From: a virus
Direction: 5' to 3' (one strand)
IMG/VR virus record: IMGVR_UViG_3300037452_000034
Span: 1-37,989 of that record
Length of the DNA: 37,989 nt
In this document: piece by piece, positions 23,434 to 29,710 of the stretch
How positions within the stretch are numbered: the first letter of the stretch is position 1
Layout: the number at the start of each line of letters is the position of its first letter
The notes under the pieces: model-generated
Databases searched by the model: none
What the model saw: only the letters and a program-made list of their open reading frames with translations
What the model was told of the DNA's origin: nothing
Translations under genes and position numbers: made by a program

Positions 23434-23895
23434 CTACCATCCACCTTTTCTCCAGTGGTCCACGTCCCCTTCGGGGCGCAGCCACGTCCACTTGCCTATC
23501 TCGTCCTTGAGCCATCCGTGATGCAGGGAGCAGCAGGGGTGAGTCTTGGAACTGCTGGCTTCCCACGCATGTGCCGCAGCCTTGGCTGTCGGCGACAGGA
23601 TCGGGACGACACGCCATCGGGCGTGTCCTTTACCTGTAGCAGGATCCGATGCGAACCTCTCGCCCATCCGCTGGGCCTGCAGTTCCGTGTTGAACGGACC
23701 ACACGCCCACAGGTGGAAGTCGGCATCACCGGCATACTTGAGGTTGGCCACCATCACGAAGCGCTTGGCTGTCTCACGGACGGCGTCGATCGCCTCAATG
23801 ATGCGGTCGGCCGCATCCTCCTCCAGCCACATATCGTAGTCAGGATCGGAGAACACAGCCAGGACCGCCTTGCGCTCAGATGCCGGGATCGGCAT
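23434..23895 (-). CDS. Early protein of unknown function
   Basis: 153 residues from ATG 23895, overlapping the upstream gene by 20 nt. Helical N-terminus with an acidic DYDMWLEEDAADRI patch, a central beta part (RFVMVANLKYAGDADFHLWA), and a C-terminus with CCSLHHGW that might bind metal. No family recognised. Confidence 0.6.
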   Translation of the reverse strand: MPIPASERKAVLAVFSDPDYDMWLEEDAADRIIEAIDAVRETAKRFVMVANLKYAGDADFHLWACGPFNTELQAQRMGERFASDPATGKGHARWRVVPILSPTAKAAAHAWEASSSKTHPCCSLHHGWLKDEIGKWTWLRPEGDVDHWRKGGW

Positions 23896-24310
23896 CTTCG
23901 TATTTCATGGTCAAGTCGGCCATCTCTACGGCCCGACCCCAGGTGGTTCCCGAGTCCTGCTCACCCTGTACGATGCGGAGCCACTCTGCGACGCCCTTAT
24001 CGAAGGTCAGGAGACCACAGGCATTGCCATAGCGGAGGATGTCAGGGGCAGCACCGTTGTAGGCGTTAGCCAGCAGCCACTCCAGCGGAACTCCGCCCTT
24101 GTGCAGGGCGACGCCGACAATGCATGCCGGGCAGGCCTCAGTGGTGACAGCGTCACCTTGGAAGGAGCCGTCATCGTCGACGTAGCCGTACATGGTGTCC
24201 GCCTCAACGGCGTAGACGCAGGCATTGAAGGGGTAGACGTAGTCCTCGCCCTTCTCCGCAACTGCCTCATTGACGAGACGCTTGGCTGTTGCCAAGTCGA
24301 GGTGAAGCAT
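23876..24310 (-). CDS. Early protein, paralogue of 26741-27340 (downstream of the hammerhead ribozyme)
   Basis: 144 residues from ATG 24310 with a GGGGAGAGAT SD. Shares with the 26741-27340 product: E-K-G-x-D-Y-V-Y near the start, a C-I-V-G-x-x-L-H-x-x-G-V-P-L block, and F-x-x-G-V-x-E-x-L...Q-D-x-G-x-T-W-G-x-A near the end. Function unknown. Its 5' leader contains the 3' part of the ribozyme: self-cleavage would give a 55-nt leader before the ATG. Confidence 0.65.
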   Translation of the reverse strand: MLHLDLATAKRLVNEAVAEKGEDYVYPFNACVYAVEADTMYGYVDDDGSFQGDAVTTEACPACIVGVALHKGGVPLEWLLANAYNGAAPDILRYGNACGLLTFDKGVAEWLRIVQGEQDSGTTWGRAVEMADLTMKYEDADPGI

Positions 24311-24337
24311 AGTATCTCTCCCCTGTCGAGCCTGTCT

Positions 24338-24393
24338 GGACTCATCAGCACTGGATTCACCAGTGGACGCTGCCCAATGGCAGCGTTTCGTCC
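24338..24393 (-). ncRNA. Type II hammerhead ribozyme
   Basis: Minus strand, 5' to 3': GGAC (stem II) GAAA, stem III ACGCTGCC/GGCAGCGT with loop ATTG, cleavage nucleotide C (24366), stem I CACTGG/CCAGTG with loop TGAAT, core CTGATGA (24348-24342), GTCC (stem II). Every core nucleotide of the hammerhead is present: CUGAUGA, GAAA with the A15.1-U16.1 pair, G10.1-C11.1, and C17. Stem II is the open helix, so this is type II. Cleavage is predicted between 24366 and 24365. The RNA begins directly after the TAA of one gene (24396-24394) and ends 27 nt before the next gene's ATG, so it would split the polycistronic mRNA. Confidence 0.93.
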
Positions 24394-24573
24394 TTAGAGT
24401 TCCTCAATGGTGACTGTGACCTTGTACATGTAGTCACGGTAGTCGTTGACGTCGGCGTCCGAGTCGCACACAACATCACTCATGGCCCTGTCGACCTCAG
24501 CCGTGGCAATGGAGATGTTGTCAGCCGACATCCATCCGTACATCGTGACCGGAACGGGCTTGCTGCGCTTCAC
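24394..24573 (-). CDS. Small early protein upstream of the ribozyme
   Basis: 59 residues from GTG 24573 (GTGA overlap upstream). Begins MKRSKPVPVTMYGWMSADN, then an acidic DSDADVNDYRDY part and a final beta strand KVTVTIEEL. The TAA stop abuts stem II of the hammerhead ribozyme, so its mRNA would end with the ribozyme 5' product. Function unknown. Confidence 0.6.
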   Translation of the reverse strand: MKRSKPVPVTMYGWMSADNISIATAEVDRAMSDVVCDSDADVNDYRDYMYKVTVTIEEL

Positions 24574-24915: not shown

Positions 24916-24977
24916 CAGACTGATATCTGGAGTATCGACAGCCCTGAAGGGCTGTCTCAACCTCAAACATCACTCAC
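24916..24977 (-). repeat. 62-bp structured leader repeat, copy 1
   Basis: Same length as copy 2 at 25600-25661, and nearly identical outside the hairpin stem. Contains GACAGCCC, loop TGAA, GGGCTGTC (24937-24956). Flanks are CAGACTGATATCTGG on one side and TCAACCTCAAACATCACTCAC-type sequence on the other. It lies in the leader of the 24570-24890 gene. Confidence 0.8.
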
Positions 24978-25599: not shown

Positions 25600-25661
25600 C
25601 AGACTGATATCTGGAGTATCGGCAGCGCCGAAGCGCTGCCTCAACCTCAAACATCACTCAC
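25600..25661 (-). repeat. 62-bp structured leader repeat, copy 2
   Basis: Hairpin GGCAGCGC, loop CGAA, GCGCTGCC (25621-25640). Compared with copy 1, the second pair is A-T to G-C and the seventh C-G to G-C, both compensatory. The flanking blocks are unchanged. It lies in the leader of the 24980-25573 gene, and its far end overlaps the stop of the upstream gene. Confidence 0.8.
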
Positions 25662-27341: not shown

Positions 27342-27382
27342 AACTCTCTCCCTGTGTTCAAGGACCGCTTGCGCGGTCCAGC

Positions 27383-27423
27383 TCCGGGGGATGGAATCGA
27401 ACCATCCTATAACCATTCCCGAA
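27383..27423 (-). other. tRNA T-arm-like minihelix
   Basis: Minus strand: TTCGGG paired with CCCGGA (one G-U), stacked on GGATGG, loop TTCGATT, CCATCC. The loop has the conserved T54-T55-C56-x-A58 pattern. Stacked arms total 12 bp, the length of a tRNA acceptor plus T minihelix. It begins 11 nt after a stop codon. D- and anticodon arms are absent, so it is not a complete tRNA. Confidence 0.45.
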
Positions 27424-29290: not shown

Positions 29291-29466
29291 CGCAAACCAG
29301 GACAGACCGGGACGTTTTTTAATCCGAGTCGCAGTCGTAGTCGTATCTCCCACTGCAATTCTCTGGTCGAACCATAGGCCCCTCTGTCCCTGTATGTCCT
29401 AGTTCATCCTGTGACGTTGGTCACACTTTTCGCAACCCCATCTGAGGACCATGATCATATCGCCTC

Positions 29467-29472
29467 TATAAT
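29467..29472 (+). promoter_or_regulatory. Consensus TATAAT -10, promoter for the terminase operon
   Basis: Perfect TATAAT in CCTCTATAATAATGGG. There is no TTGACA 17 nt upstream (GAGGAC instead), so it may need an activator or the phage sigma-like protein. It lies about 300 nt before the terminase start, leaving a long structured leader. Confidence 0.6.
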
Positions 29473-29497
29473 AATGGGACACACTGAGACACAAGCT

Positions 29498-29710
29498 CCA
29501 CGCCCCTTAGGGCGTGGCTAACTACAACTGAGTAGCCACGGGTATGTCTTCTTCCAGAAGACCACTGGAGCGGACCCCTGAGGGTCCGTACCATGTAGCA
29601 CCTGTAGCAGGGTCCCCTATGCAGGAGCCCCTGTGGGCTCCCTCCTGCTTTCCCCTAGAGTCCCTTCCTCATGGGAATCATCCCCCCGGATAGCAGCCCC
29701 TGAGGGCTGC
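29498..29710 (+). promoter_or_regulatory. Late leader with five hairpins and an alternative fold
   Basis: Hairpins at 29498-29517 (loop CTTA), 29546-29562 (TCC), 29571-29588 (CTGA), 29624-29641 (CTGT) and 29693-29710 (CTGA), all perfect 7-8 bp stems. The 3' arm of the first (GTGG, 29514-29517) can instead pair in GTGGCTA/TAGCCAC (29514-29520 with 29533-29539), so the two folds exclude each other, as in attenuators. Confidence 0.65.

Follow-up and report, generated by a model that had tools for sequence, protein, structure and literature searches.

The minus strand of the phage DNA analyzed here carries, at positions 24393–24338, an element that is almost certainly a type II hammerhead ribozyme. 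This element very probably acts in cis, cutting the leftward early transcript and separating the fates of two neighboring messages. The DNA (IMGVR_UViG_3300037452_000034, 37,989 nucleotides, referred to below as the window) comes from a soil Streptomyces-type phage. At this locus the sequence, the fold, the conservation, the sense orientation, the position at a gene junction and the membership of a large phage family are directly established. Read on the minus strand (24393..24338), the ribozyme is GGAC-GAA-ACGCTGCC(ATTG)GGCAGCGT-C-CACTGG(TGAAT)CCAGTG-CTGATGA-GTCC, and its parts and surroundings are as follows.

24394..24573, minus strand: upstream gene, 59 aa, phrog_8802 (unknown function), whose TAA abuts the ribozyme
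24390..24393, minus strand: stem II, 5' strand GGAC, directly adjoining the TAA stop
24387..24389, minus strand: core G12 A13 A14
24367..24386, minus strand: 8-bp stem III with an AUUG loop; the core is closed by A15.1-U16.1
24366..24366, minus strand: C17, a residue read directly, with cleavage predicted 3' of it
24349..24365, minus strand: stem I hairpin, 6 bp, loop UGAAU; the loop U and A are conserved in the phage subclass
24342..24348, minus strand: core CUGAUGA
24338..24341, minus strand: stem II, 3' strand GUCC, followed by a conserved A
24327..24344, minus strand: possible post-cleavage hairpin UGAGUC-CAGACA-GGCUCG, a rival to core and stem II (from the MFE only)
24315..24324, minus strand: ribosome-binding site AGGGGAGAGA of the downstream gene, a recurring junction motif
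23876..24310, minus strand: downstream gene, 144 aa, phrog_572 (unknown function)

The hammerhead at 24393–24338 is complete. The core residues C3 U4 G5 A6 N7 G8 A9, G12 A13 A14, A15.1-U16.1 and H17 are present as CUGAUGA, GAA, an A-U pair and C (C17 = 24366), and the three helices, stems II, III and I, have 4, 8 and 6 bp, respectively, each paired next to the core. The permutation is that of type II, with loops closing stems I and III and with stem II open at both ends. Both the MFE and the centroid folds are the exact hammerhead (-26 kcal/mol, z -3.8), and none of 200 shuffles was as good. A loose descriptor (requiring the core, 4 bp or more in stems I and III, and 2 bp or more in stem II) found a single match in the real window, on the ribozyme strand, and one in 150 mononucleotide-shuffled windows searched on one strand each. 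The first-pass annotation had described a complete type II hammerhead on the minus strand, with C17 at 24366 and a 55-nt leader (24365–24311); direct reading and the fold bear out its parts, its helices and every coordinate.

Its placement of the ribozyme between a TAA stop (24396–24394) and the ribosome-binding site and ATG (24310) of the next gene likewise agrees with direct reading. The ATG of the 144-aa gene is preceded by the ribosome-binding site GGGGAGAGA and lies 27 nt from the ribozyme end, and the ribozyme and both flanking genes share one orientation (leftward). The element had also been called an early intergenic mRNA element: the type II identity and the intergenic place in a leftward operon stand, and the word "early" is to be understood as synteny with the right-arm leftward genes of Beephvirinae, not as expression. 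The homologous region of named Beephvirinae phages of Streptomyces likewise runs leftward.

The closest relative found, and the sole close one, is IMGVR_UViG_3300037248_000019 (G001). At the same junction it carries a ribozyme identical at 56/56 positions, or 83/83 with the leader, in an identical run of 150 nt; the genes flanking the ribozyme are 87–95% identical between the two phages. Another type II hammerhead, the second in this relative, lies 1.27 kb upstream; its stem I is the same and its stem III is different yet fully paired.

In a search with the Rfam model Hammerhead_II (RF02276), the window ribozyme is aligned over model positions 1–66 of 66 with a score of 35.6 bits (E 9.7e-4), which falls 1.4 bits short of the gathering score of 37. 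The first-pass annotation had named a score below threshold in a type II model search as grounds for refutation, and formally this is the outcome (35.6 < 37); we ascribe it to the weakness of the cut-off for this subclass. Because of this low score, an independent covariance model (R1) was built from the short-loop ribozymes of 38 other phages, with the window and its relative left out. R1 gives the window ribozyme 64.7 bits (E 1.2e-15) and the two copies in the relative 64.7 and 70.9 bits, and the runner-up in the same 190-kb search reaches 15 bits. Strong covariation is seen in stems I and III of the short-loop alignment (38 sequences), where the figure of 100% paired is partly obtained by construction, since pairing of at least 3 bp in these stems was a selection criterion. 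With the short-loop phage type II subclass represented by R1, the window ribozyme shares the GGAC/GUCC stem II with flanking A, the U-N-A loop I and the junction position. Six multi-ribozyme loci (L083, L027, L040, L016, L021, and L048) hold 16 pattern matches, only two of which pass the RF02276 cut-off. Together with the R1 score, this result indicates that the low Rfam score reflects the family model. The RF02276 gathering score misses most phage type II hammerheads of the short-loop subclass, and its use as a cut-off conceals them. When ten named Beephvirinae-like phages were searched with R1, which does detect the window and its relative, no hammerhead was found in these records, which contain no positive control.

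When IMG/VR was scanned with the ribozyme pattern, at least 97 matches of the same architecture, each with 3 bp or more in stems I and III, were obtained in at least 75 loci, among them the window and its relative. R1 yielded 129 matches in 79 loci, with as many as six co-oriented copies per locus. Among the matches listed from the pattern scan, 76 of the 91 ribozymes with enough flank have a stop immediately upstream and a ribosome-binding site/start immediately downstream, compared with 460 of 1820 random positions (25%); the median distance is 2 nt from the stop and 27 nt to the start, and 17 of 71 loci hold more than one ribozyme. Also among the matches listed, 25 of 90 distinct cases have UAG as the upstream stop, with the G of the codon forming the outer pair of stem II, and 13 of 90 have UAA followed by the outer stem II G, the type to which the window belongs. 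That stem II so often contains or abuts the preceding stop codon suggests that cleavage is coupled to translation termination. Exact matches to the ribozyme pattern in bacterial genomes are few. One hammerhead sequence is common to assemblies of Phycicoccus jejuensis, Streptomyces iakyrus and an Eggerthellaceae MAG (L144, L145, and L149), and these matches are probably one cross-contaminating sequence; the proteins of L144 and L145 are 100% identical, and L149 was compared at the ribozyme junction alone.

The U and A of loop I and the A residues flanking stem II are conserved in the phage subclass, a pattern which suggests a tertiary contact other than a pseudoknot. For a pseudoknot between loop I and the tail, at least 4 bp were sought in the window, where the best pairing is 2 bp (UG/CA); a pairing score of at least 4 was obtained for 13 of 88 members of the set, among the matches listed. 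The pseudoknot was therefore rejected as a feature of the window and fits the long-loop minority instead; with it absent, no tertiary contact that would allow rapid cleavage at low Mg2+ was found in the window. CATCAG, the complement of the core CUGAUG, occurs within the first 10 nt of the tail in 18 of 90 cases among the matches listed, against 2.8 expected, and the tail of the relative's second hammerhead can form CUGAUG-AGUC-CAUCAG. As a general rule, pairing of the 3' tail with the core as an alternative hairpin was weakly supported (mean rank 0.45, Wilcoxon p 0.03) and was not retained.

Hammerhead self-cleavage 3' of H17 yields a 2',3'-cyclic phosphate and a 5'-OH. For the window ribozyme, we infer a self-cleavage activity, a coupling to the ribosome, stabilizing ends and an effect on expression. 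In the leftward early transcript, the RNA would fold after the terminating ribosome quits the UAA abutting stem II; as the stop codon abuts this stem, a terminating ribosome would cover it, so that cutting should follow release. On established hammerhead chemistry, the cut would fall between C17 (24366) and 24365. The upstream mRNA would then end in the closed stem III hairpin, with the 2',3'-cyclic phosphate one nucleotide past the hairpin, and the downstream mRNA would open with the stem I hairpin, carrying a 5'-OH, 55 nt ahead of the AUG. The two products should part easily, because stem II, the sole helix joining them, is 4 bp long; after parting, the 3' product may form the UGAGUC-CAGACA-GGCUCG hairpin. 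The cut would decouple the decay and translation of the two messages, as has been proposed for other phage hammerheads.

Hammerhead clusters flanking prophage genes have been reported, and were proposed to divide transcripts into messages of one gene each (Perreault et al., 2011; PMC3088659). For some arrays, cleavage of tandem bacterial hammerheads was observed both in transcripts and in E. coli (PMC3088659); stop codons are not mentioned in the main text of that paper. Given this 2011 proposal of operon-cutting phage hammerheads, the window ribozyme is a further example of an already known kind. Like the type II hammerheads of bacteria and prophages (PMC3088659; RF02276), it has closed stems I and III, an open stem II and the CUGAUGA/GAA/C17 core, and like them it lies between phage genes, a setting in which clusters were reported and transcript cutting was proposed (PMC3088659). 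Compared with the type II of RF02276, the window ribozyme differs in its 4-bp stem II (GGAC/GUCC) flanked by conserved A residues, its short U-N-A loop I, its lack of a loop I–tail pseudoknot and its sub-cut-off score. The theta (HDV-like) ribozymes of gut phages are also self-cleaving RNAs in phage genomes, but they differ in their HDV-like fold and are tied to tRNA-based recoding (PMC10879173); none was found here. In a 2017 review, the role of hammerheads in phages was listed as still open (PMC6155905). The window locus bears on this question and offers a clean natural test.

The second hammerhead of the relative (G001 2574–2638) occupies a neighboring junction; between the same two genes, the window instead has an unrelated long irregular hairpin (25656–25605). 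Two copies of this hairpin are present in the window.

25605..25656, minus strand: long irregular hairpin, at the junction where the relative G001 holds its second hammerhead
24921..24972, minus strand: second copy of the long hairpin, at the next junction, with an upper stem that differs by paired changes

The hairpin at 25656–25605 consists of a lower stem UGAUGUUUGAGG/CUCCAGAUAUCA, a UGA/GAU internal loop and an upper stem GGCAGCGC-UUCG-GCGCUGCC; among the copies, the lower stem and the UGA/GAU loop are invariant and the upper stem covaries. The relative has an orthologue of the second copy (24972–24921); besides the two window positions, the recurring hairpin was noted at L006 1955–1902 (minus strand). 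The long hairpin has no significant match in Rfam. A search of IMG/VR with both hairpin halves returned copies in the one relative only, the other matches being without the paired architecture. Named phages gave no nucleotide match to the junction, to the ribozyme or to the second hairpin. On direct reading, a 16-nt apical hairpin, CAGCGCTTCGGCGCTG, is common to the relative's hammerhead and the window's long hairpin; little weight is given to it, because GC-rich GCAGC hairpins are common in the window genome. The two phages thus provide a natural comparison, in which the ribozyme of one junction is conserved in both and, at the neighboring junction, a ribozyme is set against a different structured RNA.

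More generally, among the 59 early junctions tested in Beephvirinae and in the window, 45 are strongly structured (z < -3), compared with 8 of the 58 coding controls. The ribozyme junction of the window is the one preceding the phrog_572 gene; there, 11 named Beephvirinae-like phages instead have a conserved structured RNA of ~120 nt, with the conserved parts GGATGCACAGG...AACATAAGTAGG...CTGTGCATCC and the following positions.

L135 4666–4827: ~120-nt RNA
L136 5116–5327: ~120-nt RNA
L137 4623–4791: ~120-nt RNA
L138 5004–5165: ~120-nt RNA
L139, L140, L141, and L151–L154: ~120-nt RNA also present

In the seven that were scanned (L135–L141), this RNA has no Rfam match at the gathering score. The exchange of hammerhead and hairpin at one junction and the structured early junctions of Beephvirinae are new here, and suggest interchangeable processing elements. 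On the simplest reading, the gene junctions in this phage group would be sites for RNA elements that separate or protect adjacent messages, the hammerhead being one filler.

In phage T7, the early polycistronic mRNA is split at intergenic sites by host RNase III. Intergenic splitting of early mRNA is common to both cases, and the long irregular hairpins of the window are alike in outline to the T7 sites, their cutting being putative; T7 uses a host enzyme, whereas a hammerhead needs none. It is possible, if rather unlikely, that the early junctions of this phage group hold several interchangeable mRNA-processing elements, the ribozyme among them and the hairpins possibly being sites for host RNase III like those of T7; this reading is compatible with cleavage by the hammerhead. 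The swap of hammerhead and hairpin between the same genes, the apex common to both structures, the excess of structured early junctions over coding controls and the ~120-nt RNA before the phrog_572 gene in 11 named relatives all point this way. However, the hairpins could instead be terminators, 3'-end stabilizers or protein sites, the swap is a single one seen in one relative, and the apex match may be partly due to chance where GCAGC hairpins are common. A more specific version, in which the early operon would be partitioned by interchangeable RNA-cleavage elements swapped during evolution, comprising hammerheads and at least one undescribed long-hairpin element that is cut by an enzyme or is even a self-cleaving substitute for the ribozyme, is more doubtful still.

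The points against cleavage are the sub-cut-off RF02276 score, the missing pseudoknot, which is essential in one tested type II ribozyme, and the competing hairpin in the 3' flank. All three would also suit an inactive relic, or a slow folded hammerhead acting mainly as a 3' stem-loop. This is improbable for an RNA in which all core residues are intact and which has zero substitutions relative to the relative's copy; moreover, most members of the phage subclass are also without the pseudoknot, yet share the loop I U/A and the stem II-flanking A. Junctions here are generally hairpin-rich, and an intergenic double hairpin might resemble a hammerhead by chance, but the E-value of 1.2e-15 with the independent model, the single descriptor match in 150 shuffled windows and the perfect conservation contradict this, and make it exceedingly improbable. 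Cleavage of the leftward transcript by a cis-acting hammerhead is the reading preferred here.

At ~27372–27420 of the window (minus strand), a T-arm-like sequence, GGATGGTTCGATTCCATCC, lies in a junction beside a gene missing from the relative; it was not called by ARAGORN and is possibly a tRNA remnant or an RNase P-type minihelix. At ~29300–29700, the leftward early genes are directly followed by the terminase, a gene order which suggests a Beephvirinae-like phage whose genome ends are joined within the contig.
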